Source: Collimonas arenae (GTDB lineage: Bacteria; Pseudomonadota; Gammaproteobacteria; Burkholderiales; Burkholderiaceae_D). Taken from it: DNA of 64,000 bases. A model generated the notes under the pieces. That model had not been told where the DNA came from. It made no database searches and saw only the letters and a program-made list of their open reading frames with translations. Position numbers and translations under genes: made by a program. Below, piece by piece: positions 3,892-33,522 of the stretch. Location: contig NZ_CP009962.1 of assembly GCF_000786695.1 (NCBI RefSeq), forward strand, positions 124,001-188,000, read 5' to 3'. Within the stretch, counting starts at the first letter, position 1, and the number at the start of each line of letters is the position of its first letter.

Positions 3892-4728
3892 TCAGCTTTG
3901 TCCATGACCTGCCGTCGCCGACGGCAGCTCCGGGACTTCATCCTGAGCCGGTATGAACGGCTTCAGCCATTCAGCGACATGCGGGCGGTACATTGCGTGC
4001 AAGCCATCGTTGAAACTGTGTACGCGCAGCGCGAAATGTGTCGCCAATGCGGTCAAGGCCGGCAATGTATAAAATGAAATGTGACCGTTGCGAGGCGCGC
4101 AATACCACCAGTTATGCAAGCCATCGTCGACTATCTGCTGCGGGCAGAGCAAGGTGCTGAATAGCAGGGCACCATCCGGACTCAAGAAACTGTTGATATC
4201 CTTGACGAGGTCCAACGGGTCGTGCACGTGCTCGAATACTTCGAAGCAGGTAACCATATTGAACTGCCGTTCAGGGCGTTGGGTAGAGGAGAACGGATCG
4301 AAACTGGCTACTGAAGCAAAGCCGTTTTTCCCGAGGATCTCGGTCATCATGCCCATGCCGGAGCCGTAGTCGAGCAGGCTGATCTGCTCCTTCATGCGAC
4401 CCATGTTGTTCATGATCATGTCGGCGTTGGACTGTGGCCGTGAGCCCAGGTAATCCGGATCATGGCGCACGTAATCGTCGTTATAAATGTGAGCGGCAAA
4501 GTCTTCGGTCCGCCATTTGTCGAGCGCCCGGGTGAAGGTAAAGCCGCAACTGCCGCAGCGGTAAAAGTACACCGGCCAGCCCGCATAGGGATCGATTTTT
4601 TTCCCCGCATGGACATCGGCGCCGCATCTGGAAAAATCAACCAGGCCGGCCAGCGTAGATGTCTGGCCGCAGCATTTGCATGCGGTCATTTCTGGAACCC
4701 TGTTGCACTCGTATGGATTGTGATTCAT
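3892..4728 (-). CDS. Class I SAM-dependent methyltransferase with N-terminal zinc ribbon
   Basis: A 278-residue protein. Residues 17-70 contain paired Cys motifs (CKCCG and YRCGSCGF) expected to hold zinc, as in the N-terminal domain of many sugar or phospholipid O-/C-methyltransferases. Residues ~115-200 form the SAM domain: LLDYGSGMGMM (motif I), MVTCFEVFEHVHDP (motif IV, typical of Methyltransf_11/23) and LSPDGALLFST. It lies tail to tail with the TPR/glycosyltransferase gene 23 bases away, so a shared role in glycan or surface modification is possible but unproven. No operon partner on its own strand. Confidence 0.75.
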   Translation of the reverse strand: MNHNPYECNRVPEMTACKCCGQTSTLAGLVDFSRCGADVHAGKKIDPYAGWPVYFYRCGSCGFTFTRALDKWRTEDFAAHIYNDDYVRHDPDYLGSRPQSNADMIMNNMGRMKEQISLLDYGSGMGMMTEILGKNGFASVASFDPFSSTQRPERQFNMVTCFEVFEHVHDPLDLVKDINSFLSPDGALLFSTLLCPQQIVDDGLHNWWYCAPRNGHISFYTLPALTALATHFALRVHSFNDGLHAMYRPHVAEWLKPFIPAQDEVPELPSATAGHGQS

Positions 4729-19677: not shown

Positions 19678-20313
19678 TCACGCGGCCAGCTGCTGGCTGG
19701 CGCGCATGGGAACGAAGCCTGGCAGCGCTTCGATCCGGCTCAGCCAGCGTCGGATATGCGGATAGCCGTCCAGCGCAATGCCGCCCTCCGGCGCATGCGC
19801 GGTGTAGCTATATGTCGCAATGTCGGCGATCGTGACGTGAGAACCGGTCAGGAACGGTTGATCGGCCAGATGCGGCTCCAGGATCCCGAATAGCCGGATG
19901 GCGGTGGCGTGCGCAGCATCACGATCCAGCGGCACGCCAAACAAGGTGGCCATACGGGCGCTGGCGGGACCGCGGTAAATCTCGCCGGCTGCCAATGACA
20001 GGAAGCGCTGCACGCCGGCGGCGCCAAGCGGATCGCGTGGCAGCCAGCTGGCGTCGGCGTATTGGCTTGCCAGATAGACCAGGATGGCATTCGAATCGGC
20101 CAGCGTGACCGTGCCGTCTTCAATCACCGGTACCTGGCCAAACGGATTTTTCGCCAGGAATTCCGGCTTTTTCTGATCGCCGGCGCGTAGATCGACATCG
20201 ATCATTTCATATGGCAAGCCCAACAGCGACAAGAACAGTTCGACGCGGTGGGCGTGGCCCGAAAACGGCGAGCGATAAAGACGAATGGGCTGGCTTGGGT
20301 GGACGGCTGGCAT
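19678..20313 (-). CDS. Glutathione S-transferase
   Basis: A 211-residue GST. It starts at ATG 20313 behind AGGAG. The thioredoxin-like half reads IRLYRSPFSGHAHRVELFLSLLGLPYEMIDVDL and NPFGQVPVIEDGTVTLADSNAILVYLA (cis-Pro and DS glutathione contacts). The helical half ends FLTGSHVTIADIATYSYTAHA. The upstream open frame (38 codons) overlaps the promoter and operator and is not believed. A TetR-family gene lies directly upstream. A perfect palindrome 75 bp before the start, repeated as a half-site at tetR, makes TetR repression likely. Probably detoxifies an electrophile. Confidence 0.85.
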   Translation of the reverse strand: MPAVHPSQPIRLYRSPFSGHAHRVELFLSLLGLPYEMIDVDLRAGDQKKPEFLAKNPFGQVPVIEDGTVTLADSNAILVYLASQYADASWLPRDPLGAAGVQRFLSLAAGEIYRGPASARMATLFGVPLDRDAAHATAIRLFGILEPHLADQPFLTGSHVTIADIATYSYTAHAPEGGIALDGYPHIRRWLSRIEALPGFVPMRASQQLAA

Positions 20314-20387
20314 GGCAAATCTCCTGATGGGATTGAATTGGATGCTGACTACATGCGGCACGAACACCACGAAAATGATGCGCGTTT

Positions 20388-20409
20388 TTGTACCGAACAA
20401 TCGGTACAA
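20388..20409. promoter_or_regulatory. TetR-type operator TTGTACCGA-N4-TCGGTACAA
   Basis: A perfect 9-bp inverted repeat with a 4-base spacer, in the promoter region of the GST gene. The half TTGTACCGA recurs at 21052-21060, next to the tetR start. Shape, size and recurrence fit a TetR-family repressor site. Confidence 0.65.
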
Positions 20410-20475
20410 TACAAAGCGAACACGCACCTGTCAAGGAAAAATCTGAAAAACCGTTGTTAAAGCCAGTCTGGAAAA

Positions 20476-21045
20476 TCAGGCGGCAGACTCGCCGAGAAGG
20501 ATACCGGGGAAATTCTCAACCATACGCATGAACGGGCCGTTGCTGCCCAAGGCACGCGACACCACCAGCGAGCCCTGGATCGCTATCACGGCATTTTCAG
20601 CGCGTATGGCGGCGTCAACCTTATCGATGCCGGCATCCTCGGCCAGTGCTGCTAGCAAGGCCATCAGGCTGCGCATGCGGCTACCCAGATGCTGCTGGAA
20701 CAGCGCACCGGCCTCGCCGATGGTGAAGACATCGGTCAGGCAAGGCGTCATGCCGTTGGCGTAAAACTCCGCCAGCTTGCCGGCGAATTGCTGCGCACGG
20801 ACAGCAGGCAATTCACTGCCGGTCAAGGTAGGCAGTACATTGTGGGTGACCCAGGCGCCAACCGACGCCATGGCTGCGCTGGCCATGTCTTCCTTGCCGT
20901 TTGGAAAGTAATGGTACAGGCTGGAGCGGCCCAGCCCGGTAGCGTCCGACAGGCGCGACAGGCTGCTGCCTTCGTAGCCGAAGCGGCGGAAAGCGGCCAG
21001 GATGCGTTCAATGACTTCGTCGCGGGTAAGTGTAGGGCTAGCCAT
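20476..21045 (-). CDS. TetR/AcrR-family transcriptional repressor
   Basis: A 189-residue regulator. Residues 8-52 are the DNA-binding helix bundle: RDEVIERILAAFRRFGYEGSSLSRLSDATGLGRSSLYHYFPNGKEDM. The rest is a helical ligand domain of the LmrA/YxaF kind (AGALFQQHLGSRM, AVIAIQGSLVVSRALG). The frame opens 21 codons earlier, but ATG 21045 gives a normal family N-terminus and leaves the half-operator 21052-21060 in the leader. It lies upstream of and co-oriented with the GST it probably represses, with likely autoregulation. Confidence 0.85.
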   Translation of the reverse strand: MASPTLTRDEVIERILAAFRRFGYEGSSLSRLSDATGLGRSSLYHYFPNGKEDMASAAMASVGAWVTHNVLPTLTGSELPAVRAQQFAGKLAEFYANGMTPCLTDVFTIGEAGALFQQHLGSRMRSLMALLAALAEDAGIDKVDAAIRAENAVIAIQGSLVVSRALGSNGPFMRMVENFPGILLGESAA

Positions 21046-21160
21046 GGTGATTTGTACCGAATGTTCGTTGTTATCAATGTAGTGCCGGAATGCCAAAACA
21101 GCAAGCACGCAGTGCGCGAAAAGATAAAAACAACAGGCTTTATATAAAATAATGATTGCC

Positions 21161-21169
21161 TAGCTAACT
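21161..21169. promoter_or_regulatory. TAGCTAACT element before marR
   Basis: TAGCTAACT stands 22 bp ahead of the MarR gene, within CTAGCTAACTATAGCT, where AGCTA..TAGCT forms an imperfect inverted repeat. The same nine bases occur before the next gene (21718-21726). Candidate MarR site. Confidence 0.4.
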
Positions 21170-21190
21170 ATAGCTGCCTACACTTCTTTC

Positions 21191-21607
21191 ATGTTTGATC
21201 ACTGTCTCTATTTCAATACCACCGCGCTGGCGCGCATCGTCGAGCGCGAGTGGAACGCTGCCTACCGGCCATTCGACTTGACTGCGCCGCAGGGTTTTGT
21301 GTTGCGTACTGTGTTGCGGCGGCCGGGTTTGCTGAGCAGCGAAGTGGCTGATGTCTTCGGTATCGCCAGGCCAACTGCGACCCGTTTGTTGGATGCCTTG
21401 CTGAGCAAGCAACTTATCGAACGCCGACCCTCGGCGGACGATGGCCGTGAATGGAATATCTTTCCCACGGCCGCGGGGTTGGCGCTGGATGTGCCTATCA
21501 ACGCCGTCAGCGCAGAAGTGGCGCAGCGTTTGCGGGCGCAGGTTGGCGACGACCGTTTTGATGGCTCGATCGCGGCCCTGCGTGGTATCCGGGAAAGCAT
21601 CCGCTGA
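21191..21607 (+). CDS. MarR-family transcriptional regulator
   Basis: A 138-residue winged helix protein. Core: FDLTAPQGFVLRTVLRRPGLLSSEVADVFGIARPTATRLLDALLSKQLIERRPSADDGREWNIFPTAAG, with the recognition helix ARPTATRLLDAL and the wing DGREWNIFPT (Asp-Gly-Arg in the usual place). Flanking helices form the dimer. It is followed 140 bp later by a small membrane protein whose promoter repeats the TAGCTAACT element found before marR. Signal unknown. Confidence 0.85.
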   Translation: MFDHCLYFNTTALARIVEREWNAAYRPFDLTAPQGFVLRTVLRRPGLLSSEVADVFGIARPTATRLLDALLSKQLIERRPSADDGREWNIFPTAAGLALDVPINAVSAEVAQRLRAQVGDDRFDGSIAALRGIRESIR

Positions 21608-21717
21608 TGCCGCGCTGATCCCGCCTTCCTGAAGACGGCTTGCGCGTCATGCAAGTGAAAGATGCGACAGAAAGCAAATGCGCCAGCGTGGCGCATTATT
21701 TTCGCCATTTAGTTGTT

Positions 21718-21726
21718 TAGCTAACT
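21718..21726. promoter_or_regulatory. Second TAGCTAACT element
   Basis: Same nonamer as at 21161-21169, here 22 bp before the small membrane protein start. The matching distance from the start codon in both promoters (about 22 bp) supports a common repressor site. Confidence 0.4.
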
Positions 21727-21747
21727 TCTTTTCGACAAGGAACCGCC

Positions 21748-22011
21748 ATGCCAGCCATTTCGGAAAATCAGCAGAAAACTACGCCTCGTTTCACCGGATA
21801 TGCAAAATACGCAACGCTTGTCCTCGCACTCTTGTTGTTCGGCATCTTTTGTTACTTGCTCGCCGGATCAGATGCGTCCACAGTGCAGGAGGCTTGCATC
21901 GCGGCGCATGCCGCCGAACAAGGCATCGACCGGCAGCAACTGAGCAGCGAGGCGCGCCATCAATCTGCGCTGGTTGCCATACTGTCGTCCTGTACAGGCA
22001 TGGCGCCATAA
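21748..22011 (+). CDS. Small single-pass membrane protein, 87 aa, function unknown
   Basis: Not recognised. AAGGA lies 7 bases before the ATG. A polar N-terminus (~18 residues) is followed by one hydrophobic segment (YATLVLALLLFGIFCYLLAG, ~20-40) and a soluble tail with two Cys (QEACIAAH and LSSCTG) that could pair outside the membrane. It shares a promoter element with the marR gene upstream, so it is probably its target. The alginate lyase follows after 130 bp of sequence in which I see nothing else. Confidence 0.65.
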   Translation: MPAISENQQKTTPRFTGYAKYATLVLALLLFGIFCYLLAGSDASTVQEACIAAHAAEQGIDRQQLSSEARHQSALVAILSSCTGMAP

Positions 22012-22140
22012 AATTGCAACAAGAAGATACATCGGAAGTAGGCCGCGCGAGCCTGTGTTTAAATTCCCGGGTGGGTTGGCATTGCGCAGGAAGCGCTGCC
22101 GCCGCATTGTTTTTTTCAACGCACATTTCGAGGAAGCCGC

Positions 22141-23136
22141 ATGCCGCGCCGACTATTCCAATTGATGCTGCCGCTGTGTCTGTGTCTGTGCAGCGGCAGC
22201 GCTTTAGCTGCATGTCCTGATGCGCCAGCAGGTTTGCGTGATATCGAAGCAAACGGTTACTACTCGGATGCGCATTATTCGATCGTCGATCCGGTACTTA
22301 AGGCCAAGAATGAAGCTGCGGTGAAGCCGTTCAGCGATTATCTCGCCAACGTTAGCGCCAACGCTGACCGCTATATCGCCAACGGCGATAGCGCCGCCGG
22401 TCAATGCGCATTGAAATGGCTGGACCGCTGGGCGGTAGATGGCGCGATGCTGGGCAAGGTAGTCAGCAGCCAGGCGCAGTACGAGCGCAAATGGACCTTG
22501 GCCGGCGTGGCGCTGGCCTATATCAAACTGCGGCCGTTGGCCGAACCGTCGCAACGCACGCATATCGATGCATGGCTACCGCAGTTGGCGGATGCGTCGC
22601 TGGCGTTCTTTGATGATCCCAGGCACAAGCGCAACAATCACTACTACTGGGTTGGCCTGGCAGTGATGGCGACCGGGGTCGCCACCGGCGATACGCGCTA
22701 CATCAATGCCGCCAGCAAGATCTATGACAGCGCACTCAACGACATCGGCGAAGACGGCAGCTTGCCGCAGGAGTTGAATCGCGCCGGGCGGGCGCTGGCT
22801 TATCACAATTACGCGTTGGCGCCGCTGGTGATGATGGCGGAACTGTCGCGGCTCAACCATGACGACTGGTATCAGCGCCGGCACAAGCGGCTACAAAAGC
22901 TGGCGCAGCTGGTCCTGAGCGGCATCGCCGACCCGGCCTGGTTCGTCGAAAAAACCGGCGCCCAGCAGGAGATACCGAAAGGCGGGATACTCGGCTGGAT
23001 CGCATTCTACCGCCAGACCGCGCCGGAACTTACCGCGCAATCGCAAGAATTGATGGTGCAAGCGCCTTTCCGTTATGCCCAGTTAGGCGGCAATCTCAGC
23101 GTACTGGCAGAGAAACATTTTTTTGAACAGCCATGA
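22141..23136 (+). CDS. Alginate lyase family protein (polysaccharide lyase 5, AlgL-like)
   Basis: A 331-residue exported enzyme. The signal peptide MPRRLFQLMLPLCLCLCSGSALA is followed by ACPDAPAGL, as in AlgL. The catalytic Asn-His is seen in KRNNHYYWVGLAVMATG, and the RAGRALAYHNYALAPLVMMAEL helix follows the PL5 pattern. PL5 enzymes cut polymannuronate by beta-elimination in the periplasm. No other alginate biosynthesis gene (algD, alg8, algG) is in the window, so the role could be degradative or in clearing periplasmic polymer. It converges on an MFS gene with an intergenic repeat between them. Confidence 0.82.
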   Translation: MPRRLFQLMLPLCLCLCSGSALAACPDAPAGLRDIEANGYYSDAHYSIVDPVLKAKNEAAVKPFSDYLANVSANADRYIANGDSAAGQCALKWLDRWAVDGAMLGKVVSSQAQYERKWTLAGVALAYIKLRPLAEPSQRTHIDAWLPQLADASLAFFDDPRHKRNNHYYWVGLAVMATGVATGDTRYINAASKIYDSALNDIGEDGSLPQELNRAGRALAYHNYALAPLVMMAELSRLNHDDWYQRRHKRLQKLAQLVLSGIADPAWFVEKTGAQQEIPKGGILGWIAFYRQTAPELTAQSQELMVQAPFRYAQLGGNLSVLAEKHFFEQP

Positions 23137-23176
23137 GTGCGCCGCGATCCTGCTTGAATCTGCTTGAGCCTGATGT

Positions 23177-23366
23177 AGAGGCTGTTGCGAAATTAATCTA
23201 GCGTTGTTGCCCTTGCAGGGCGCCCCCTGGCTTGCAAGCCAGGTCGTTCCGCAGGCAGACGACAATGTCGTCAGAAACCTCCGCTATACCCTCCTAGCCG
23301 TACTGCTCGTACTGCTCGTATTGTCTTCGTCGGCGCGCCCAGCCATCTGTGTTCGCAACAGCCTCT
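23177..23366 (+). repeat. TIR-bounded intergenic repeat, copy 1 (190 bp)
   Basis: Ends are AGAGGCTGTTGCGAA and its exact complement (15 bp). Inside are a perfect palindrome CCTGGCTTGCAAGCCAGG, a weaker hairpin GACGA-CAATG-TCGTC, and a tandem ACTGCTCGT unit present twice (once in copy 3). It fills the gap between convergent algL and MFS genes, and its last base is part of the MFS stop codon. Copies 2 and 3 are at 29833 and 62726. No coding capacity; looks like a MITE-like or REP-like element. Confidence 0.8.
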
Positions 23367-24568
23367 TAGAAAGTACCGTCGCCAGGTTCGACCGGCTGCG
23401 ATAAGCGGCGCGAGCTTGCGAGTGAGGGGGCGCGGCTGAGATACAGGGAAAGCAGGGCGCACAGCAACGCCGTCCCCGATATTGCTGCGCCGACCGTGGG
23501 CGTGTCAGCCAGCGATCGCGAGGCAATCACGAGGCCGCCGCAGGCCGCTCCCAACGCCACGCCGAGGTGCATGGCGGAAGTATTCAGGCCGATATTCACT
23601 TCGCTGGCAGCCGGCGCTGTGCTGATCAGGTAACTTTGCACCGTTGGCGAAATACTCCAGCTCAGGCTGCTCCATAACATCATTACCGGCAGGAACAGCC
23701 AGAGCGAGCCGGCGAACAGCGGCAAACTGGCCAGCACCAGCGTAAACACGGCGGGCACAAGCCACATGGTGCGTCGCGCGCCAAGCCGGTCGGAGAGCCA
23801 GCCGCCAAGATAGCCGCCGCTCACCGCCGAGACGCCGAACAACGCATACATCAGGCTCAGGTTGCCGCCATGCAGTCCAAGCGTGGCGCCGAGATAAGGC
23901 GCCAGGTAGGCGAACAAGGTGAAATGACCGGCGATCATCAGAATCGACACCAGCTGCGCCAGCGCCAGGCTGGGAACCGTGAGCTGTTGCCAGTAGCGGC
24001 GCAGCGGCAAAGGCTGGCGGGCGGTCATTTGCGGCAGGCTGGCCTGTAGCCAGAAGATCAGTGCGGCGGCCAGCATCGCCATGGCGGCAAAGGGCAGGCG
24101 CCAGCCGAGATGCTCGCTGAGCACAATGCCGAAAGGAATGCCCAGCACCAGCGAGGCGCTGATCCCCATGAAGATGACGCCGATGGCGCGGCCGCGATAG
24201 TCAGGCGTTACCAGCGCCGAGGCAAAGGTGGTGCACAGAACCACGATCAGCGAACAGCTTGCCGCCGAAACGATACGCAGGACAAACAGGCTTGCATAAT
24301 TGGACGCCAGCGCGGCCGCCAGGTTGCTGGTGGCGAATATTGCGAGTGCAGCTTGTAGCAGGGTGCGTCGTTCGAAACGGGCGGTGAGCGACAACAGCAG
24401 CGCCGCGCACAGGGCGAAAGAAAGGGAAAAGATGCTGGTCAGTTGCCCCACGACGCTGACCGATACCTTCAAGTCATGCGCCAGCAAAGGCAAAATTCCG
24501 CCGACGATATTCTCATCGAGGCCGGCAATGAAAGCCACCAGCGCCAGCAGGTAGATACGACGATCCAT
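23366..24568 (-). CDS. MFS transporter (DHA1/arabinose-efflux-like)
   Basis: A 400-residue, 12-segment major facilitator. It starts at ATG 24568 with AAGGA 7 bases upstream; an earlier open frame adds 22 residues without support. The N-terminus reads MDRRIYLLALVAFIAGLDENIVGGILPLLAHDLKV; motif-A-like GGWLSDRLGARRTMW lies in the second half. This subfamily exports drugs, sugars or metabolites. It is the last gene of a minus-strand run from sensor kinase to LqsR-type regulator to LuxR-type regulator to MFS (96-bp gap after luxR), so it could be an efflux output of that signalling locus. The 3' end abuts a repeat element. Confidence 0.82.
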   Translation of the reverse strand: MDRRIYLLALVAFIAGLDENIVGGILPLLAHDLKVSVSVVGQLTSIFSLSFALCAALLLSLTARFERRTLLQAALAIFATSNLAAALASNYASLFVLRIVSAASCSLIVVLCTTFASALVTPDYRGRAIGVIFMGISASLVLGIPFGIVLSEHLGWRLPFAAMAMLAAALIFWLQASLPQMTARQPLPLRRYWQQLTVPSLALAQLVSILMIAGHFTLFAYLAPYLGATLGLHGGNLSLMYALFGVSAVSGGYLGGWLSDRLGARRTMWLVPAVFTLVLASLPLFAGSLWLFLPVMMLWSSLSWSISPTVQSYLISTAPAASEVNIGLNTSAMHLGVALGAACGGLVIASRSLADTPTVGAAISGTALLCALLSLYLSRAPSLASSRRLSQPVEPGDGTF

Positions 24569-24664
24569 GGACAGTTCCTTTGATAAATGTTGCAGCTGGC
24601 TGCAGCAGGAAACAGTCGATGGCGGCGCCATCAATGCGGAATGCCGTTACGCGCTTGCTAAACG

Positions 24665-25402
24665 TTAGTTATTCGGTTTGATAATGCCCATCATGACCGC
24701 TCGGCTGATCGCATGGCGGGTGCTGTAGACGCCCAGCTTCATCGCCACGTTCTTCATGTGGAAATAAACGGTGCGCTGGGATATCCCCAGGATCAGGCCG
24801 ATTTCGCTGCTGGTCTTGCCGTCGGCGCTCCAGCGCAGGCATTCGAGCTCGCGCGCAGACAACAGCGACTCCTGGTTCGGCGTGGCTTTACGCCACAGCA
24901 GTTCGGCGGCTTCCTGCAGATACAAGCCCAGCAGCAGGGCGTCAGCCTGGGCGCTGGCAGTCAGCGCCAGCGGCGGCGTCGCGTTGCAATAAAAGTCGAG
25001 ACGGTTCACGGACTGTTTTGTATGCAGCGCCAGGCTCATGCCCTGCGTGATGCCCATGGTTTTCAGCAGCGGATAGATCTGCCCGCCATGCAGCAAACAG
25101 AGCTGCTCCACCTGCCAGTTAAGCGGCAGGCAGGAACGTGCCAGGTGTTGTTGGATGGGATCGGTCTTGTCGTCTGCCGGCTGGTTGAAGAGCTGGAGCG
25201 TGGCGCCGGGCAGGGTGCCGAACATTTGCACCAGCGATGCGCCGTTGGCGCCTGAGACGTCCATCTTCAGCATGAAATCGCAGATGCCGAGCTGCGCCAG
25301 CAGGCGCTGGGCGCGTGCGCGCAACTGCTCCCAGTCGGGAGCTTGTGCGATCTGCAGCAGATCGGGCGTGGATAATCGGAGAACGGTTTCGCTTCGCACC
25401 AT
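24665..25402 (-). CDS. LuxR-family regulator with shortened autoinducer-binding domain
   Basis: A 245-residue protein. Residues ~20-165 fit the autoinducer-binding domain: DP (81-82), Trp96 and Gly121 match conserved LuxR positions. But between NQP and DP there are only five residues (ADDKT), where LuxR/TraR have a longer piece holding the pocket Trp and Tyr (W57 and Y61 of TraR). Residues ~180-240 are a normal LuxR HTH (LSARELECLRWSADGKTSSEIGLILGISQRTVYFHMKNVAMKLGV). No luxI is nearby. It starts 14 bases after the LqsR-type regulator, surely in the same transcript. Probably a LuxR solo with an altered or absent ligand. Confidence 0.82.
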   Translation of the reverse strand: MVRSETVLRLSTPDLLQIAQAPDWEQLRARAQRLLAQLGICDFMLKMDVSGANGASLVQMFGTLPGATLQLFNQPADDKTDPIQQHLARSCLPLNWQVEQLCLLHGGQIYPLLKTMGITQGMSLALHTKQSVNRLDFYCNATPPLALTASAQADALLLGLYLQEAAELLWRKATPNQESLLSARELECLRWSADGKTSSEIGLILGISQRTVYFHMKNVAMKLGVYSTRHAISRAVMMGIIKPNN

Positions 25403-25416
25403 GGGATTTTCTTTGG

Positions 25417-26430
25417 TTATGATTTTACGTCAGCGGATTGATCGCGCAAAAACTCCGCAAAGGAATAAAAAGACTCACGCATATAATGTGCCGGGAAATC
25501 AAATAGCGCCCAATAATAATCTTGCGTACCAAAACAAATCTGCGCCGGCAGGCAATATGATAGCCAATCGTGGCGCAGCGCGTCGGTGTACATGCCGCCG
25601 CTATCGGAAAAGAACGGCACCAGCCGCATTTCCCGCAAGCCGGTCAGCAATTCCAGCGGCGCGCCATAGTCTTGCGCCACTTCCAGCTGCGACATCAGGC
25701 TGGCTTCGGTTTCCACCACCATCAGCGTCGCCTTGCCCTGGATATCAAAGAACAGGATACCGGTTGGGTTAGGAAACAAATAATACTCGACAAAGCCATG
25801 CCGCTTGCAAAGTTGCTCGACCAGCGCTTCCATGGCCGGGTCAGACAGGAAGGTGTAAGAGTGGCGCGACAGTAGATCTTTCAGCGTCAGCGATTGCGCG
25901 TGGAAGAATTCTTTCTGCAGGGTGCGGATTTCCGCTTCCAGGTGATCAAGGGCGTCATGATCGCCTTTCTTGATGAAACGATCGATCAGGCCCCTGTTGA
26001 ACGCTTCGATGGCGATCTTTTCGTCTGCCTGGCCGGTAAACAGGATCTTTTTACAGGGCAGGTCCTGGACCGCCTGGCAAAACGCCAGGCCGTTCATCTG
26101 CGGCATCGCATAGTCGATCACCAGTACCGACGGCAGCATGAAACGGCGGCGGTTCAGCGATTGCCGATAGATCTGGTCGATATCGACCGCAACGGTACGG
26201 CGGTCGAAGGAAAAGCTTTGCTCGTCATAATTCACCCGGATCGACTGGGTTTTGCTGGGCGATTGGCGATAGGCGTCGCGCAGCCACTCCAGGGCGGCCT
26301 GGGTATCGTGGAAGACCTTGCGCGCCATCTGCGGCGGCAGCTGGAAAGCCAGGCTGTCCAGGAAACTCTGACTATCGTCGATCAGGATAGTCAAAGTAGG
26401 GTGTTGATAAACAGGTAATGAAATGTTCAT
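25417..26430 (-). CDS. jqsR: LqsR/JqsR-type response regulator of the alpha-hydroxyketone system
   Basis: A 337-residue response regulator without a known DNA-binding domain. The receiver runs to ~residue 170, with ILIDDS (18-19 acidic pair), phosphoacceptor Asp106 in VLVIDYAMPQMNG, LFTGQAD (switch Thr) and FIKKGDHD (Lys). A ~30-residue insertion precedes Asp106, as in Legionella LqsR, whose site is Asp108. The C-terminal ~165 residues (YYLFPNPTGILFFDIQGKATLMVVETEAS) are the unusual output part of this family. ATG 26430 is chosen although its ribosome site is weak; the upstream frame overlaps the kinase gene. Partner kinase is directly upstream. Confidence 0.82.
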   Translation of the reverse strand: MNISLPVYQHPTLTILIDDSQSFLDSLAFQLPPQMARKVFHDTQAALEWLRDAYRQSPSKTQSIRVNYDEQSFSFDRRTVAVDIDQIYRQSLNRRRFMLPSVLVIDYAMPQMNGLAFCQAVQDLPCKKILFTGQADEKIAIEAFNRGLIDRFIKKGDHDALDHLEAEIRTLQKEFFHAQSLTLKDLLSRHSYTFLSDPAMEALVEQLCKRHGFVEYYLFPNPTGILFFDIQGKATLMVVETEASLMSQLEVAQDYGAPLELLTGLREMRLVPFFSDSGGMYTDALRHDWLSYCLPAQICFGTQDYYWALFDFPAHYMRESFYSFAEFLRDQSADVKS

Positions 26431-26483
26431 GTTGGCGCATTGCAGGCGCAATGACTCTACTTGCGCTCGATTGGTTAAGACTG

Positions 26484-27803
26484 CTAATTTAACAGAGAGC
26501 GCATCTCTGCCGCTTTTTGTTGCACTACAGGCGGAAATTCCAACACGAAAATCGTATAGCCCAGCGGTCGCGAAACCACGCGAATGCGGGCACCCCAGGC
26601 ACTTAGCACATCTTTGCAAAATGCCAGCCCGATGCCGGTGCCGTTGTGTTCGGGATAGGCATAGAAACGCTCGAAAATCTGTTCTGTGCGGCCAGGTTCA
26701 ATACCGCTGCCGGTGTCGATGAACAACAGCCTTGGCCGCGCCCTGGCACCGTCCAGCACGATCCGTATGCGGCCTTTTCCGATACGCTGGATGGAAGTCA
26801 ATGCGTTACGCAATAAATTGATCAGGACCATCGAGCACAGTTCGGTCTGGCCAAGCAAACGAAAATCGGAGCGAACGGTAATGGCGACCAGATCGCGCTG
26901 TTCCTGGTTGACGAAGGGATAGCGCTGCATCATCAGGTCAACTGCCGCCGTCATTGAGACGATATCCGTGGCGACCAGGTTTTCCCTGCCGGTAGAGGCG
27001 CTCAGCAGGAACAGATCGATGACGTTGTTCATGTGCCGCACTTCGAATTCGATTCTGGCCAACGCTTTTTCCATCGGGACCTGGCTGGGCGAGCTTGGTA
27101 CGGCATTTTCCTGCAACAGACGGCTCAGGCCCCGCGCATTGGCATTGATGCTGCGTAGCGGCGTGCGCAACTCGTGCGACACCGTCGCCAGCGCGGTCGC
27201 CATGCCTGCGAGTTTTTCCTGCGCCAGGACTTTTCTGCCGACCTTGGCGATCGATACCGTCACTATGGCGAACAGCTGTATCGGCCATTGCTCCAGCGCG
27301 TGAAAGCTCGGCGGAACCAAGCCGCCATGGAGCGCGGCAAAAGCAAAGTAGGCGAACATCGTGCCTGTCAGATAAGACAAAAATGCCAGCGTTGTATCGA
27401 AGTGGAACAAGATAATCACGGCGATCAGCAGCGACTGGCCCCAAACCGGAGAGCCGTCGTTCATCAAAAACATGAAGGTGAAGAAGAACGGGGCTATATA
27501 GGTCAGGCTGATGAAGAAATACGCGGTCAGCCACCTTTTGGGAATCTGATGCCTGAGGGCGATGGCCGGCAGGCACAGCACGATGCCGAAAATCCGCAAG
27601 CCCAGGTTTTCGTATGGCTGCGGGAACCAGTATGCCCACACGACGTAATACAGCGGCATGCCGATCACGGCGATCCATGCCAAGAGCATCATGCGCTCGA
27701 TATTGCTGTCGTACTGACGGTAAAACCCGGCCCACCACTTGCCCGTGGCTTGCCGCCAGACCGGCCAACGTTCGCTTATCCAGCTGTTAGTGTGCTCACT
27801 CAT
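26484..27803 (-). CDS. jqsS: CqsS/LqsS/JqsS-type membrane sensor histidine kinase
   Basis: A 439-residue kinase. About six hydrophobic segments lie between residues 39 and 187 (MMLLAWIAVIGMPLYYVVWAYW at the start), without a large periplasmic loop, as in CqsS/LqsS receptors that bind alpha-hydroxyketones in the membrane. H-box ATVSHELRTPLRSIN with His210; N-box INLLRNALTSI; G1 DTGSGIEPG; G2 NGTGIGLAF. Unlike CqsS it has no attached receiver, matching LqsS. It is divergent from the synthase gene (165-bp gap) and followed by its regulator. Identification rests on domain layout plus the CqsA-type neighbour. Confidence 0.83.
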   Translation of the reverse strand: MSEHTNSWISERWPVWRQATGKWWAGFYRQYDSNIERMMLLAWIAVIGMPLYYVVWAYWFPQPYENLGLRIFGIVLCLPAIALRHQIPKRWLTAYFFISLTYIAPFFFTFMFLMNDGSPVWGQSLLIAVIILFHFDTTLAFLSYLTGTMFAYFAFAALHGGLVPPSFHALEQWPIQLFAIVTVSIAKVGRKVLAQEKLAGMATALATVSHELRTPLRSINANARGLSRLLQENAVPSSPSQVPMEKALARIEFEVRHMNNVIDLFLLSASTGRENLVATDIVSMTAAVDLMMQRYPFVNQEQRDLVAITVRSDFRLLGQTELCSMVLINLLRNALTSIQRIGKGRIRIVLDGARARPRLLFIDTGSGIEPGRTEQIFERFYAYPEHNGTGIGLAFCKDVLSAWGARIRVVSRPLGYTIFVLEFPPVVQQKAAEMRSLLN

Positions 27804-27926
27804 GTGGGTCGGTTAATGGTCTATCATAAATTGTCATTAGGCAGTTCGTTGCGGAGCCGGCCAAATACCCGCTTCCACGTGAAATGCCTTGTTTGGCGCC
27901 AGATTCCAGACGGGGGAGCTCTGGCT

Positions 27927-27951
27927 ACTCTGTTTGGCTTATTAACAGAGT
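27927..27951. promoter_or_regulatory. ACTCTGTT-N9-AACAGAGT inverted repeat before jqsA
   Basis: An 8-bp perfect inverted repeat in the jqsS-jqsA divergent gap, ending 16 bp before the jqsA start and just upstream of its GGGAG ribosome site. It could be an operator or, in RNA, a hairpin that affects translation. Confidence 0.45.
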
Positions 27952-27967
27952 GTACTGGGAGAAAATT

Positions 27968-29236
27968 ATGCCACTAACTACAAGCTACCACGCGGAATTA
28001 AGTTCTGCAGCGGAGCAACATTTACCCGCTTTTGTATCTGCGCGTATGGACGAGCACTACATCGAACGTATAGAAAAGCTGCTGGGCGGCGAGCATCTGC
28101 ATAAATGGCATGCGCCGGGTCCGGATGCGATTTATCTTTCTAGCAACGATTATCTATGCATTGCCGGGGAACCGGTGCTGATCGAGGCGCAGGCTGCATG
28201 CCTGAAGCGAGGCGAAGTCGATTTGTTGATGTCTACGGTTTTTCTGCAGGAAGGTAGCCCGCAGCATCGCCTGGAACAAAAAATGGCGAATTTCATGGGC
28301 TCGGAAGATGGCTTGATTACACAATCCGGCTGGAGTGCGAACGTGGGGCTGATGCAAAGCATCGCAGAACCCGGCGTGCCGGTGTATCTCGATATGCAAG
28401 CCCATGCTTCATTATGGGAGGGAGTGAATTCAGGGCAGGCGCGCGCGGTGCCATTCCTGCACAATGAAACCGAACATCTACGACGCCAGGTACAAAAACA
28501 CGGTGCAGGTGTGATCGTGGTTGACGCCTTGTACAGCACCAATGGCAGCGTGTGTCCCTTGCACGAGATATTGGCGGTAGCCGAAGACAGCGGCAGTATC
28601 CTGGTGGTGGATGAGTCGCATTCACTCGGCACGCATGGCCCTGAAGGAGCCGGCCTGGTAGCGCAGATGGGATTGTCCGAGCGGGTGCACTTCCGTACTG
28701 CTTCGCTGGCCAAGGCTTTTAGCGGACGGGCCGGTTTCATTACCTGTTCGCATAAATTCAAAGGCTACTTTCTATCGACATCCAGGCCTGCCATTTTCAG
28801 TTCCTGCCTGCTAGGGCATGAGCTAGCCTGGTTCGATGCCGCGCTTGATTTTATCCGCGCAGCCGATGACCGCCGCCAGGCACTCCATCGTAATGCGCAC
28901 CGCCTGCGTACCGAGCTAAGCGCCCTGGGCTACAACGTCAGCGACGGTAGCGAGCAGATCATCGCATTGGAAGCCGGCACCGAGCCGATGACGCTGGTTC
29001 TGCGCAAGGCGTTGGAAGCAGAGGGTATTTTCGGCGCTGTATTTTGTGCGCCGGCGACGCCGAAAAATCGTTCCCTGGTACGGCTGACGATCAACTCCGG
29101 CCTGACCGAGGTTGAGATTCAAAGGATTGTGCAGGCATGCGCCAATATTCGCGAGAATGTGCGCCTGGCCGACTGGTCTTCAAGCCGCCGCAAGGTCGTA
29201 GTGCCGCGGCAGGCAGGCGTTTCCGTTTCCACTTAA
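27968..29236 (+). CDS. jqsA: Alpha-hydroxyketone autoinducer synthase (CqsA/LqsA/JqsA)
   Basis: A 422-residue alpha-oxoamine-synthase-type PLP enzyme. Landmarks: YLSSNDYLCIAGEP, VFLQEGSPQHRLEQKMANFMGSEDGLITQSGWSANVG, VVDESHSLGTHGPEGAGL (Asp215, His218) and PLP Lys249 in TASLAKAFSGRAGFIT. The family joins an acyl-CoA to an amino-acid-derived unit to make the 3-hydroxyketone signals (CAI-1, LAI-1). ATG 27968 has GGGAG 7 bases ahead; the open frame upstream is discarded. Placement beside an LqsS-type kinase and LqsR-type regulator separates it from ordinary KBL or BioF enzymes. Confidence 0.87.
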   Translation: MPLTTSYHAELSSAAEQHLPAFVSARMDEHYIERIEKLLGGEHLHKWHAPGPDAIYLSSNDYLCIAGEPVLIEAQAACLKRGEVDLLMSTVFLQEGSPQHRLEQKMANFMGSEDGLITQSGWSANVGLMQSIAEPGVPVYLDMQAHASLWEGVNSGQARAVPFLHNETEHLRRQVQKHGAGVIVVDALYSTNGSVCPLHEILAVAEDSGSILVVDESHSLGTHGPEGAGLVAQMGLSERVHFRTASLAKAFSGRAGFITCSHKFKGYFLSTSRPAIFSSCLLGHELAWFDAALDFIRAADDRRQALHRNAHRLRTELSALGYNVSDGSEQIIALEAGTEPMTLVLRKALEAEGIFGAVFCAPATPKNRSLVRLTINSGLTEVEIQRIVQACANIRENVRLADWSSSRRKVVVPRQAGVSVST

Positions 29237-29260
29237 TCGAGTAACAGCGCGAGTAACAGC

Positions 29261-29302
29261 GGCTTCCCGCCGATTTGCCATTGCAGCGGCGGCCGGGAAG
29301 CC
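29261..29302. terminator. Hairpin between jqsA and the HxlR gene
   Basis: GGCTTCCCG and CGGGAAGCC form a 9-bp stem, with an inner CCGCCG/CGGCGG stem. It lies between converging genes and can end both transcripts; the T-tract is poor (TTCCT). Confidence 0.65.
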
Positions 29303-29311
29303 TTCCTGCAC

Positions 29312-29746
29312 TCAGTTGTCAGTCATATCGTATTGCCGTCGCGCGCCGCGAATCACTGTTTGATGGTTGCCAGCCCAGTCAGCCAGCACCTTGAGCGGCA
29401 TGCATAGCGAGCATCCCAGTACGGTCAGCGCATATTCCACTTGCGGCGGCGTGCTCGGGATCACCGTACGCGATACCAGACCGTCTCGTTCCAGGTGACG
29501 CAAAGTCACCGTCAGCATACGTTGCGAAATGCCGTCGACCTGGCGTCGCAACTGGTTAAACCGTGCAGGGCCGGATTCCAGCGTAGTGAGCACCAGCACA
29601 CTCCAGGCGTCGCCGATACGGTCCAGCACATCGCGGATCGGGCATGGCAGGTCTTCGAGAGCGCTGGGCCGCCCTCTGCCGCGTGCCGCTGCGGGAGTTG
29701 CTGGTATGGCGGAGAGGGTGGTTACCTGCATGTTCCTATCGTTCAT
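29312..29746 (-). CDS. HxlR-family (winged helix) transcriptional regulator
   Basis: A 144-residue regulator. It has CPIRDVLDRIGDAWSVLVLTTLESGPARFNQLRRQVDGISQRMLTVTLRHLERDGLVSRTVIPSTPPQVEYALT, the full HxlR signature with the N-terminal Cys used by several members to sense oxidants or quinones/aldehydes. ATG 29746 follows GAAGG by 7 bases. It is divergent from an NAD(P)-binding reductase gene, a common pairing in which HxlR represses the reductase. A repeat element (copy 2) sits between their promoters. Confidence 0.87.
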   Translation of the reverse strand: MNDRNMQVTTLSAIPATPAAARGRGRPSALEDLPCPIRDVLDRIGDAWSVLVLTTLESGPARFNQLRRQVDGISQRMLTVTLRHLERDGLVSRTVIPSTPPQVEYALTVLGCSLCMPLKVLADWAGNHQTVIRGARRQYDMTDN

Positions 29747-29832
29747 CAAAGTGCCTTCTTGCGCTTAAGTTTCAAATAATTATACTGGTTACTTTAAATA
29801 ACCACCACGGCCAGCGCAGTCGGCCATCATTT

Positions 29833-29944
29833 AGAGGCTATTGCAAACACAGATGGCTAGGCGTTCCGACGAAGACACTACGAGTAGTACGGCTAGGAGG
29901 GTGTAGTAAGGGGAACAACGCCAGGTGTGTTTGCAACAGCCTCT
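29833..29944 (-). repeat. TIR-bounded intergenic repeat, copy 2 (112 bp, shortened, inverted)
   Basis: Read on the minus strand it runs AGAGGCTGTTGCAAACACA...TGTGTTTGCAATAGCCTCT, so the terminal repeats match over ~19 bp with one mismatch. It keeps both ends, the CCTCCTAGCCGTACT block and TGTCTTCGTCGG. It lacks about 70 bp of the centre (the two hairpins) found in copies 1 and 3. It lies between two divergent genes, ending 25 bp before the reductase start. Confidence 0.78.
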
Positions 29945-29969
29945 TAATCATCACTTAAAGGAAACCATC

Positions 29970-30581
29970 ATGAAAATTGCCATCATCGGCGCTACCGGCA
30001 ATGCCGGCTCCCGGATTGCCGCCGAGGCGCTACGGCGCGGCCACAGCGTGACCGGCATCGCCCGTTCCGCAGATCCGGCAAAAGCGCCAGCCGGCGTCGA
30101 ACTACGTCAGGGCGACGCCACCCAGCCGGAGCAACTGGCGGCATTGATTCGCGGTCAAGACGTGGTGGTCAGCGCCGCCAAGTTCAGCGTGTTGAAAGCA
30201 GCAACGCTGCTGCAAGGCGTCAAGAGCGCAGGCGTCAAGCGCTTGCTGGTGGTCGGCGGCGCGGCCAGCCTGGAAACCGCGCCTGGCGTGACCTTGCTGG
30301 ATAGCCCGAATTTTCCTGCCGAGTACAAGGTGGAAGCCGTACCAGGCAAGCAGTTCCTGGACGATCTGCGTGCGGAAACCGAGGTGGACTGGACTTTCCT
30401 GTCGCCGCCAGCCATGTTTGCACCGGGCGAACGCACCGGCGTATTCCGCGTCGGCCAGAACCAGCTGATGGCAGACGCGCAAGGAAAAAGTCACATTTCG
30501 ATGGAAGATTATGCGATTGCCTTGCTGGACGAAATCGAGCAGCCCAAGCACCTAAAGCAGCGCTTTACCGTCGCTTACTGA
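29970..30581 (+). CDS. NAD(P)-binding (atypical SDR, YwnB/NmrA-like) protein
   Basis: A 203-residue Rossmann protein beginning MKIAIIGATGNAGSRIAAEALRRGHSVTGIAR (GxTGNAG dinucleotide motif). It also has LLVVGGAASLETAPG and LSPPAMFAPGERTG, typical of the SDR_a5 group of NAD(P)H-binding proteins often controlled by HxlR regulators. AAAGGA is 8 bases before ATG 29970. Its promoter lies at or next to repeat copy 2, which ends 25 bp ahead. Substrate unknown; biliverdin/flavin or quinone reductase roles are seen in relatives. Confidence 0.82.
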   Translation: MKIAIIGATGNAGSRIAAEALRRGHSVTGIARSADPAKAPAGVELRQGDATQPEQLAALIRGQDVVVSAAKFSVLKAATLLQGVKSAGVKRLLVVGGAASLETAPGVTLLDSPNFPAEYKVEAVPGKQFLDDLRAETEVDWTFLSPPAMFAPGERTGVFRVGQNQLMADAQGKSHISMEDYAIALLDEIEQPKHLKQRFTVAY

Positions 30582-30685
30582 TTTACCGGCTTGCCAGTCA
30601 TGCTTTTTATTTCCGCATACCGTGTTTTCTACGGGCCGTCATCTTCCATCGTAAGGTGAGCGCTAGTTGAAAGACTACAGCGCTT

Positions 30686-31750
30686 TCATGGACGGCTGTC
30701 CGCTTTGGAGAGGAAGGCATCGGCAAAAAAATGCGTGGCCGGTAAGCTGCAACTGGCGCTGAAATCGCGCCGTGCGGCCTCCACCACCACCGGCGCGCCG
30801 CACGCATACACCTGGTGCTGCGACAGGTCCGCATGATCTTCCATGACCGCCAGATGGACGAAGCCGGTACGGCCTTGCCAGCCGCCGTGCGGCTCCGGTT
30901 CCGACAGCACCGGCACATAGCGGAACCACGGCAGGCTTTCGGCCCAGCCGCGGCATAGCGCGTCCATATACAGGTCCGGCTGTCTGCGGCCACCCCAGTA
31001 CAGGCACATGCTGCGCGTACTGCCGTTGCTGATCGCGTCTTCCAACAGCGCTTTGATCGGCGCGAAGCCGGTGCCGCTGGCCAGCAGGATGACCGGATGA
31101 TCGCCGTCGCGCAGGAAAAAACTCCCGCAGGGACCTTCGAGTTTGAGCGTGTCGCCGGCGCGCAAGCTGGCGAACACCTGGTCGCTGAACAAACCGCCAG
31201 GCATGTGCCGCACATGCAATTCCAGGCCGCCGCCGGCCGGAGTGGCCATCGAATAGCTGCGCCGCTGGCCATCGGCCAGCAAGACGTCGACATACTGGCC
31301 GGCGATATAGTCCAGCGCGGGCGTTGCCGCATCTTCAGCGCGCAGGCGGATGACAGCGACATCCGACGCCGCCCGTTGAACCGTTTCAACCACCATCTGT
31401 ACATGCCGGATCGCCGCCTCATGCGGCAGTTGCGGCGTGGCGCTCACTTCCACCTCGACTCGTCCTGCCACCACTCGCACCGGAAAGCTGCGTACCGCCT
31501 CGGTCACCGGCGCGCAGCGCGGAGCGCCGCTCTTGATGTCGAACATGCCCTGGTGCAAGGGGCATTCAATGCAGCCGTCCTCGATATAGCCGTCAGACAG
31601 CCTGGCATTGCCATGCGTGCATAAATCACGTAACGCAAACAGTTCTTCGCCGAGGCGGAATACCGCCACCGGCTGGCCGCCGGCGATGACCGCAACCGGC
31701 TCGTCCTCGTTGAAATCTTCGGCCGTGCCGATATCGTGCCATGCGCTCAT
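30686..31750 (-). CDS. Fused Rieske ferredoxin - FAD/NAD(P)H ferredoxin reductase of an aromatic dioxygenase
   Basis: A 354-residue electron-transfer protein. Residues 1-102 are a Rieske ferredoxin (CTH at 44-46 and CPLH at 63-66 bind the [2Fe-2S]). Residues ~115-340 are an FNR-like reductase: RRSYSMATP (FAD), ASGTGFAPIKALLED (NAD) and the terminal VYACGAPVVVEAAR. Three-component dioxygenases usually encode these as two proteins (AndAb plus AndAa, or NagAb plus NagAa); two-component reductases (AntC/BenC) instead have a plant-type ferredoxin domain. It is the third gene of the operon, 8 bp after the small subunit. ATG 31750 has GAGAGA upstream. Confidence 0.85.
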   Translation of the reverse strand: MSAWHDIGTAEDFNEDEPVAVIAGGQPVAVFRLGEELFALRDLCTHGNARLSDGYIEDGCIECPLHQGMFDIKSGAPRCAPVTEAVRSFPVRVVAGRVEVEVSATPQLPHEAAIRHVQMVVETVQRAASDVAVIRLRAEDAATPALDYIAGQYVDVLLADGQRRSYSMATPAGGGLELHVRHMPGGLFSDQVFASLRAGDTLKLEGPCGSFFLRDGDHPVILLASGTGFAPIKALLEDAISNGSTRSMCLYWGGRRQPDLYMDALCRGWAESLPWFRYVPVLSEPEPHGGWQGRTGFVHLAVMEDHADLSQHQVYACGAPVVVEAARRDFSASCSLPATHFFADAFLSKADSRP

Positions 31751-31758
31751 GATCTCTC

Positions 31759-32244
31759 TCAAATCGGGGTTGCCAGCAAGGTTTGCACACGCAGCGTGTC
31801 GTACACCACACGCCGCTTCGCGTAGCGCCAGCCGGCACCGGTTCGGATCACCCGATCCAGGTAGCGGCCGGCCTGGTACACATGCGATTCGCCATCCTGC
31901 AGGGTTTGTATCACCACATAACTGGATTCGGTTTCGACCGTGTCGGCGTCGATGCGTTTGATCATCAGGCCGGAAGTCATGTGGCGGTAGCTGTGCGCTT
32001 CGTAGATGTTGGCGTGTCGCAGCGACAGAACGCGGTCGCGCAGCATGCGTTTGCTGTCGCAATAGATGATGCCGATCGGCAGGCTGGCGTCGGCGTTTTC
32101 ACGCGGGATGATTTCATACAGGCAGTCGTCAACGAAAAATTCCGGCCATTCTTCCAGGCGGTCATTATCCAGTGCGTGCACATAGGCTTCCTGCAACTGA
32201 TGCAATTCAAACCACAAAATCATTTTTTCCATCGCGTTTTCCAT
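31759..32244 (-). CDS. andAd: Aromatic-ring-hydroxylating dioxygenase small (beta) subunit
   Basis: A 161-residue protein of the Ring_hydroxyl_B (NTF2-like) family: LHQLQEAYVHALDNDRLEEWPEFFVDDCLYEIIPRENAD near the N-terminus and VYQAGRYLDRVIRTGAGWRYAKRRVVYDT at the end. It packs with the alpha subunit to build the oxygenase. Length and gene order fit AndAd of the three-component anthranilate 1,2-dioxygenase. AAAGG precedes the ATG, only 3 bp after the alpha-subunit stop, so the genes are translationally tied. The symbol is given by context; a salicylate-hydroxylating homologue is the alternative. Confidence 0.75.
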   Translation of the reverse strand: MENAMEKMILWFELHQLQEAYVHALDNDRLEEWPEFFVDDCLYEIIPRENADASLPIGIIYCDSKRMLRDRVLSLRHANIYEAHSYRHMTSGLMIKRIDADTVETESSYVVIQTLQDGESHVYQAGRYLDRVIRTGAGWRYAKRRVVYDTLRVQTLLATPI

Positions 32245-32247
32245 GGT

Positions 32248-33522
32248 TTACGCCTTTTCAAAACCCATCAGTTTTTGATACCCGAGCCAGAACTTGCGGA
32301 TCAGGCCTTCGGTAATCAGCGTGTCTTCCTGCTCTGGATTGTCTTTCGCCATTTCCATCACCGAGCAGTCGTCGGGATCGCGCACGGTGCCGCGCTGCAC
32401 CAACTCGGTCGCCTCGGTATCTTCCATCGAGATATAGCCGGCCGGCCCGACCAGATTGGCTTGCTTGATACGCAAGGCGCGCAGCTCCGGCGTGTCGTCG
32501 GCGTAGCCGAAGAAATGGAAAATCAGTTCGAAATTCTTCGGCCCTTTCGGCAGTAGCTGGCGCGCCACCAGCGTGTTGTGGATTTGCTGCACCACCAGTT
32601 GCGGAAAGATCGGCTGGATATGATTGGTCGTCATTTCCTCGTATTCCTTGATCTGTCCCAGCACCGAATCGTCTTCCAGCGTAAAACCCTCGTCAAAGGA
32701 GCGGATAGCTTGCTGCTTGTAGGCGTCCGACGTTTCAGTTTCGTTCTTGGTGGCGGTGATGATGCTGTGCAAACCGTGCCGCTTATCCGCCAGCGAGCGC
32801 GCCTTCATGCCGACCCGGAAGATATTGAAGGTGGTATGGAACAGATGCAGCAGACTGGCGTGATACGGATCCTTGACGTTTTCCAGGTACAGCTTCCAGT
32901 TCGACTTCGAATACTGGCGGGTGCAGCCCAGATAGACGATGGGCTTGTGGAAAATGCGGTCGATCCAGGGACGCATTTCAGCGCCTATATAGTCAGCCAG
33001 CGGTTCGACGATTTCGCTGAAAGTAGCGAATACCAGGCCGCGATAGCTGTCTACCCGCAACTGGCGCAGGCCATGGCATTTCGGATCGAAATCCTTGGGC
33101 ATGCCGCTCATGCCTTTTTGTCCACGCCGGAATGGCACGCCCTGCAGGTTGCCGCGCGAATCGAAACTCCATTGGTGATAGGCGCAGCTGTGCGAACTGG
33201 CATTGCCACGCGGGGTGCGGCATACCATCGCGCCACGGTGCGCGCACTTGTTGACCCAGGCCGCCAGCGTGCCGTCGTCGGTGCGAGTGACCACTACCGG
33301 CGTGTCGCCGATGAAAGTGCTCTTGAAATCGCCGTTGTTGGGAATCTCCGCTTCCAGCGCCAGGAAACTCCAGACCGGCCCGCGGAAGATGCGTTCCTGT
33401 TCCAGATCGTAGACTTCCTGTGCGCTGAATACTTTGTAGGGAGTGCGCGAGCCGTCGTTGCGCGGAAACTGCACTAAAGGGGCGTAGCCGGGCGGCCTGC
33501 TTTGAATGGTTGTCTCTTCCAT
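32248..33522 (-). CDS. andAc: Rieske dioxygenase large (alpha) subunit, anthranilate 1,2-dioxygenase (AndAc) type
   Basis: A 424-residue oxygenase. The Rieske centre is CAHRGAMVCRTPRGNASSHSCAYHQW (Cys-x-His and Cys-x2-His). The mononuclear iron site is ENVKDPYHASLLHLF (Asp, His, His). The length and the ENVKDPYHA form match the anthranilate/salicylate branch (AndAc, NagG) rather than benzoate BenA. With catBCA next door, the product should be catechol: anthranilate to catechol plus CO2 and ammonia, or salicylate 1-hydroxylation. Two Met codons lie in tandem; the second (33522) sits six bases after AAGGA and is preferred over 33525. Divergent from catB. Confidence 0.8.
   Translation of the reverse strand: MEETTIQSRPPGYAPLVQFPRNDGSRTPYKVFSAQEVYDLEQERIFRGPVWSFLALEAEIPNNGDFKSTFIGDTPVVVTRTDDGTLAAWVNKCAHRGAMVCRTPRGNASSHSCAYHQWSFDSRGNLQGVPFRRGQKGMSGMPKDFDPKCHGLRQLRVDSYRGLVFATFSEIVEPLADYIGAEMRPWIDRIFHKPIVYLGCTRQYSKSNWKLYLENVKDPYHASLLHLFHTTFNIFRVGMKARSLADKRHGLHSIITATKNETETSDAYKQQAIRSFDEGFTLEDDSVLGQIKEYEEMTTNHIQPIFPQLVVQQIHNTLVARQLLPKGPKNFELIFHFFGYADDTPELRALRIKQANLVGPAGYISMEDTEATELVQRGTVRDPDDCSVMEMAKDNPEQEDTLITEGLIRKFWLGYQKLMGFEKA

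Follow-up and report, generated by a model that had tools for sequence, protein, structure and literature searches.

The described systems closest to the locus reported here are the alpha-hydroxyketone (AHK) systems Jqs of Janthinobacterium and Duganella (jqsA, jqsS and jqsR) and Lqs of Legionella pneumophila. In Jqs the synthase and kinase genes are divergent and the kinase gene is followed by a gene for an LqsR-type regulator. Lqs is made of the LqsA, LqsS and LqsR families, with hdeD lying between lqsR and lqsS and no linked LuxR named in the part of the source drawn on (PMC3376566; this and the other articles are cited from excerpts). LqsR-type regulators have no known DNA-binding domain and diguanylate cyclase activity of LqsR was not detected; furthermore, PhcX of Ralstonia, a member of the LqsR family that is decoupled from Lqs, shows that such regulators can be wired to different partners (PMC10653808). 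Here we describe a locus in a 64,000-nucleotide stretch of the Collimonas arenae genome (assembly GCF_000786695.1, contig NZ_CP009962.1, positions 124,001 to 188,000 of the forward strand; hereafter the window, numbered from its first letter), in which a gene for a LuxR-type regulator stands directly behind lqsR. We read this locus, with a probability of roughly 0.55, as an Lqs/Jqs-type AHK system of a distinct clade in which the LuxR encoded within the operon acts as the output of LqsS and LqsR. A LuxR gene in this position is not described in the excerpts of six articles (PMC3566124, PMC5080296, PMC3376566, PMC4690342, PMC11288634 and PMC10653808), Uroz et al. 2022 on Collimonas being outside this scope.

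The window carries a CqsA/LqsA-family synthase, an adjoining kinase and an LqsR-family regulator, the three protein families expected of a Lqs/Jqs AHK system. The gene for the PLP (pyridoxal phosphate)-dependent autoinducer synthase, lqsA (27968..29236, plus strand; Aminotran_1_2), scores 566.6 bits against NF005526 (‘alpha-hydroxyketone-type quorum-sensing autoinducer synthase’), for which the cut-off is 428, and its product is 63-72% identical to LqsA of the seven Jqs-type loci compared. On the minus strand lies lqsS (26484..27803), a sensor histidine kinase gene whose product has a sensor region at about residues 1-200 and a kinase part from about residue 204 (HisKA 204-268, HATPase_c 324-425), the membrane passes being judged from sequence alone, without a predictor; LqsS orthologs with 57-82% identity adjoin lqsA at 10 lqsS-bearing named loci. 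It is followed on the same strand by lqsR (25417..26430) after 53 bp, by the LuxR gene (24665..25402) after 14 bp and by a gene for a major facilitator superfamily (MFS) transporter after 96 bp. These genes, coordinates and gaps, taken from the list of open reading frames and the sequence, agree throughout with the preliminary description of this DNA, which had the synthase facing the kinase; the two genes are in fact divergent and 164 bp apart (27804..27967), as in Jqs. On the basis of the spacing, lqsS, lqsR and luxR are presumably co-transcribed.

Response_reg is the sole Pfam match of the window's LqsR, and no DNA-binding domain was found in it by the Pfam search. With the LqsR profile as query, the PDB gives 6sy9 (‘Response regulator’), which we take to be Legionella LqsR, at 5e-84 over positions 3-334, and the columns that are invariant among 15 sequences include D18, D19, D106, T132 and K155. 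The LuxR protein passes the cut-offs for both GerE (61.5 bits) and Autoind_bind (28.7 bits, slightly above the cut-off of 23); among the other linked LuxRs scanned, those of loci L064 and L128 are above the Autoind_bind cut-off and those of L127 and L129 just below it. Its structure model (predicted local distance difference test, pLDDT, 85.3) has QscR, TraR, SdiA and RhlR as best PDB matches, with whole-chain template modelling (TM) scores of 0.5-0.6, and RhlR bound to PqsE is among these structural matches (8dq0, 7r3e and 7r3j).

We found the same arrangement well beyond the window. In a survey of 245 genomes of the family (E <= 1e-15 for lqsR, E <= 1e-20 for the LuxR homolog), lqsR is present in 76 and the LuxR homolog in 21, and the two are neighbours by coordinates in 14, namely 13 Collimonas genomes, the window included, and the metagenome-assembled genome (MAG) G067. 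At all 13 Collimonas lqsR loci the LuxR gene lies directly behind lqsR with a gap of 12-24 bp, and in G067 the gap is 5 bp; two genomes of the same genus, G001 and G004 (86% complete), have neither gene at the survey thresholds. When named genomes were scanned with the LuxR alignment, 80 of 263 loci were kept, and lqsR lies immediately before the LuxR match in 11 of these (seven Collimonas, MAG JANXTY010000030, apparently the G067 locus again, Pseudoduganella rivuli, P. ginsengisoli and the Burkholderiaceae MAG JAIENA010000244, the last three with a gap of 14 bp), and no lqsR was found within the flanks examined at the other 69. The linked loci are thus 17, from 13 Collimonas genomes, the two Pseudoduganella species and two MAGs, with gaps of 5-24 bp, and because the order of lqsR then LuxR recurs in all of them the arrangement is not a chance one. 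The preliminary description had proposed a genome search for LqsR followed by LuxR, and would have been refuted by a LuxR gene not kept beside lqsR in relatives; the gene is kept at 13/13 Collimonas lqsR loci and four others, so that within the clade this objection does not arise.

The linked loci occupy three flanking contexts (Collimonas, G067 and L127-L129), and none of the eight window flanking genes searched for was found at the three non-Collimonas full loci. The LuxR of the window is 38-39% identical to those of L127-L129. Of 399 genomes searched across the order, 30 have lqsR, and 27 of these belong to families other than that of the window; at the loci of these 27 and at L240, which is from the window's own family, no LuxR was found at E <= 1e-3 within 1.5-kb flanks, several loci being clipped by contig ends. 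That scan took one locus per genome, with 431 bp on the downstream side of L237, and left further lqsR-like places in those genomes uncovered. No LqsR-LuxR fusion was found among the 120 of 1692 LqsR homologs listed, which carry PF00072 only.

In G067, a 97% complete MAG, lqsR and luxR stand side by side and no lqsS or lqsA was found at the locus. Elsewhere in this genome the best match to the synthase query has 24% identity and that to the kinase query 25%, in the kinase part only, and we take these distant matches to be other enzymes and kinases. This suggests that G067 is a natural deletion in which the lqsR-luxR pair is retained without the synthase and kinase. Other loci with lqsR and neither lqsA nor lqsS found alongside are L091-L096 and L237-L239, which come from several genomes, some in the family of the window and some in a related one. 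The case of PhcX differs in that its new neighbour is the phc system, whereas in the window's clade the neighbour is a LuxR and the AHK genes are mostly kept.

The LqsR tree was built from 79 loci and has 77 rows, L100 and L110 being dropped for a short or broken lqsR, and the family lqsR places in G230, G201, G253 and G171:C1 lie outside the locus set. All 17 linked rows fall, together with the unlinked L092, in one clade (support 99/97), and the other 59 rows are unlinked. The linkage label needs two changes on this tree, against a shuffled mean of 15.7, and the simplest reading would be one gain and one loss. In the LuxR tree one clade of 25 rows (100/99) holds the 17 linked and eight stand-alone proteins, with its inner order open. 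Locus L063 has a second, stand-alone LuxR copy (3781-4551), which is 70% identical and has Trp at a position where it is lost in the linked copies.

Next to the gene content, the regulatory DNA also separates the linked loci from Jqs. In Janthinobacterium, jqsA and the genes regulated by JAI-1 have a JAI-1 motif, TTGAN6/7TCAA, in their upstream regions; deletion of 49 bp that include it lowered a vioA promoter fusion by 75-90%, and no factor that binds it is named in the excerpt (Haack et al. 2016, PMC5080296). Among 79 loci examined, 58 have lqsA (42 unlinked and 16 linked), and within 350 bp upstream of lqsA we found the motif in 40/42 unlinked and 0/16 linked loci (Fisher p 2e-12, the loci not being independent samples); the expectation from controls, which are first-order Markov samples and not exact dinucleotide shuffles, is about 0.01 per sequence. 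Two unlinked loci lack the motif: L062, which comes from a different family, and L206, where a site with one mismatch lies at -80. Within 200 bp of lqsA all 64 sites are 14 bp long, with 40 between -78 and -101 and the other 24 between -120 and -167, and the 16 linked loci have a single N6 site with one mismatch, in L129. Over the whole window the N6 form matches three times (0.8 expected by chance) and the N7 form once (0.7 expected), none of these matches being within 350 bp upstream of lqsA and none in the lqsS/lqsA intergenic region. By the motif, therefore, neither the window's locus nor any of the 15 other linked loci with lqsA belongs to the Janthinobacterium/Duganella subtype, which for its part has no LuxR of the linked family behind jqsR. 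Output gene and cis-site change together in the linked clade.

The TTGAN6TCAA form of the JAI-1 motif contains what we take to be the FNR consensus core, and, because of this match and the 14-bp length at 64/64 sites, a factor of the FNR/CRP type is a candidate JAI-1-motif binder in Janthinobacterium-type systems (L061, L097, L101-L104, L107 and L191-L230). The words ‘Fnr’ and ‘Crp’ are absent from the text of PMC5080296. In the lqsA leader of the window (about 27900-27955), dyads near the ribosome-binding site may form an RNA hairpin or an operator. The dyad CCAGACAG...CTGTTTGG is found in most Collimonas and ACTCTGTT-N9-AACAGAGT in the window and L049, with variants in others; as a LuxR operator, both types were rejected, each occurring in subsets of Collimonas only, with variable spacing, and in none of L127-L129. 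Promoter-like sites are below the shuffled mean and terminator-like sites near it, and Rfam gave one match over 20000-33000, under the gathering score and located elsewhere.

We then considered what the LuxR might respond to. The alignment of LasR to the LuxR profile is free of gaps across the relevant ligand region, so that LasR Y56, W60, Y64, D73 and W88 correspond to positions 64, 68, 72, 81 and 96. All 17 linked LuxRs have L at 64, one of T/M/V/L/I at 68, F or L at 72, D at 81 and W at 96; the pocket retains D81, W96 and G121, while the Trp/Tyr anchors for acyl-homoserine lactone (AHL) are replaced by apolar or small residues. W68 and Y72 are kept in 12 of 13 distant comparators, and an aromatic residue is found at position 68 in two of the eight stand-alone members of the clade (W in L118, F in L121). 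In the genome of the window itself, the AHL-type LuxR beside luxI (G000:C1, about 3.0 Mb) reads NNYPSSWRQRYN...VDP...W, keeping Y, W and Y, and its Autoind_bind score is 112 bits, compared with about 29 for the LuxR linked to lqsR. Within Collimonas the ligand domain has a mean identity of 75% and the DNA-binding domain 95%. Such a pocket, with its fast-evolving ligand domain, could be that of a solo receptor, one that integrates the cue of some other small molecule (plant, fungal or an endogenous metabolite) with the AHK pathway, and the family does include stand-alone members. The LuxR solos PluR, PsoR and OryR have changed Trp/Tyr AHL anchors as well, but we know of none of this type encoded with a two-component AHK system. 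Relaxed constraint could also explain the fast evolution, and the near-obligate place behind lqsR in the clade and the G067 pair point to LqsR instead, for which reason we consider a solo receptor unlikely, though the best of the alternatives.

A second alternative is that the LuxR is a cytosolic receptor for the AHK itself, next to LqsS. The operon shared by spacing and an apolar pocket that could accommodate a fatty hydroxyketone speak for it, and distance correlations over the 13 Collimonas loci allow it to be weighed. LqsA and the LqsS sensor region (here residues 1-190) co-diverge closely (r 0.96, or 0.95 with LqsR taken out), whereas against the LqsS kinase part, LqsR and LuxR the correlations of both lie at only 0.19-0.46. 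The change from one pattern to the other comes near LqsS residue 200, at the start of HisKA. Two allele groups of LqsA and LqsS sensor (about 27204-29018 in the window) are discordant with the rest of the locus, one comprising the window, L049, L052, L057 and L060 and the other the remaining eight; the synthase and the sensor domain were apparently exchanged together, as one signal cassette, between Collimonas lineages. The LuxR ligand domain, in contrast, correlates with LqsR at 0.92 and with the kinase at 0.85. Its correlation with LqsA is weak, although higher than expected by chance (r 0.33, Mantel p 0.017), and drops to a partial r of 0.13 (p 0.18) given LqsR, while that with the LqsS sensor is 0.03 (p 0.38) with LqsR taken out. 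The LuxR is therefore unlikely to recognise this same signal with matching specificity, and an AHK receptor is accordingly improbable.

The idea that the LuxR gene is a passenger with no relation to the rest of the operon, for which one could cite the stand-alone family members and the single origin of the linkage on the simplest tree reading, is more improbable still, given its conservation over 17 loci in three flanking contexts, with 38-39% LuxR identity between the window and L127-L129, and its place beside lqsR in G067, at a locus that lacks lqsA and lqsS. Least probable is that the LuxR senses the organism's own AHL and so merges two signal classes, as the preliminary description had suggested: the genome does carry a luxR-luxI pair and published work describes AHL production in Collimonas (PMC4690342, PMC11288634, in excerpt), but the AHL anchors are gone from all linked LuxRs and kept in the luxI neighbour, which leaves the merging unsupported.

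We return to the reading of the LuxR as the output of LqsS and LqsR. Under this reading LqsA would make an AHK, as its family membership supports; the sensor domain of LqsS would detect it and set the phosphorylation of LqsR, by comparison with Legionella and Vibrio; LqsR would act on LuxR by direct binding or via LuxR level or folding; and LuxR would bind DNA and control a regulon, replacing the JAI-1-motif factor of Janthinobacterium/Duganella-type systems. The LuxR is probably gated by LqsR and not by AHL or AHK, and the linked gene suggests itself as the missing last step from ketone signal to gene expression. In favour are the 5-24 bp linkage in 17 loci, three flanking contexts and one LqsR clade, together with the G067 pair, the JAI-1 contrast, the tracking of LqsR by LuxR, the loss of AHL pocket residues and the presence of RhlR-PqsE among the fold matches. 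In Pseudomonas aeruginosa, PqsE is a quorum-sensing protein without a DNA-binding domain that controls the LuxR-type regulator RhlR. This is the nearest known logic, although PqsE is not a response regulator and RhlR binds AHL; PqsE-RhlR complexes are in the PDB, and we take the resemblance as a precedent for the proposed logic only. More tentatively, and as a possibility that we hold to be clearly less likely than the general reading, phospho-LqsR may directly gate an autoinducer-independent LuxR that replaced the JAI-1 factor, with signal (synthase and sensor) and output (kinase, LqsR and LuxR) cassettes being exchangeable.

Several observations weigh against the LuxR as output. In 62 of the 76 lqsR genomes of the family lqsR has no such adjoining LuxR, so the notion of a DNA-binding partner for LqsR, raised in the preliminary description, is the best reading within the clade, where the LuxR is conserved, but not a general one. 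The clade member L092 (G238, on a long branch) has lqsR with no LuxR, lqsA or lqsS found beside it, and eight of the 25 LuxRs of the clade stand alone, one of them (Oxalicibacterium) in a genome without an lqsR match. The absence of the JAI-1 motif and the LuxR linkage share the same part of the tree and are therefore one phylogenetic contrast, not 58 independent ones, and an operator common to all linked loci was searched for and not found. The raw correlation of LuxR with LqsA is above chance before LqsR is removed. Furthermore, the tracking of LqsR by LuxR is also expected from plain vertical descent, as the luxR-side flanking genes GST (nine loci), MarR (10) and AlgL (five) follow both (r 0.84-0.94 with LqsR and the LuxR ligand domain, 0.24-0.42 with LqsA). 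TetR (12 loci) does so more weakly (0.49 with LqsR, 0.68 with the LuxR ligand domain and 0.29 with LqsA), and HxlR and NmrA on the lqsA side (nine loci each) are intermediate, at 0.43-0.57 with all three.

The drug-efflux-like MFS transporter gene (23366..24568, minus strand; MFS_1 by Pfam), which the preliminary description had listed within the locus, is judged to lie outside the system because only 3 of the 11 testable other Collimonas loci carry it, a twelfth, L056, ending at a contig edge. A gene of the alginate-lyase family (22141-23136), convergent to the operon, is found in 4 of 12 other Collimonas loci. On either side of the block from the MFS gene to HxlR, at 23177-23367 and 29833-29946, stands one copy of a short repeat whose ends are palindromic (AGAGGCTRTTGC...GCAACAGCCTCT). 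With the second copy as query the genome gives at least 72 match rows, some copies giving two rows and 40 of 114 candidates being scored, and the repeat resembles a miniature inverted-repeat transposable element (MITE).

For LqsR-type regulators, a DNA-binding gene right behind lqsR in Collimonas, a genus of soil bacteria, provides a concrete candidate partner. If the proposed reading is true, a hydroxyketone sensed at the membrane would be converted to transcription via a LuxR. The combination of an exchangeable signal module with a steady output module would be, to our knowledge, a new case of signal-type switching in hydroxyketone systems.

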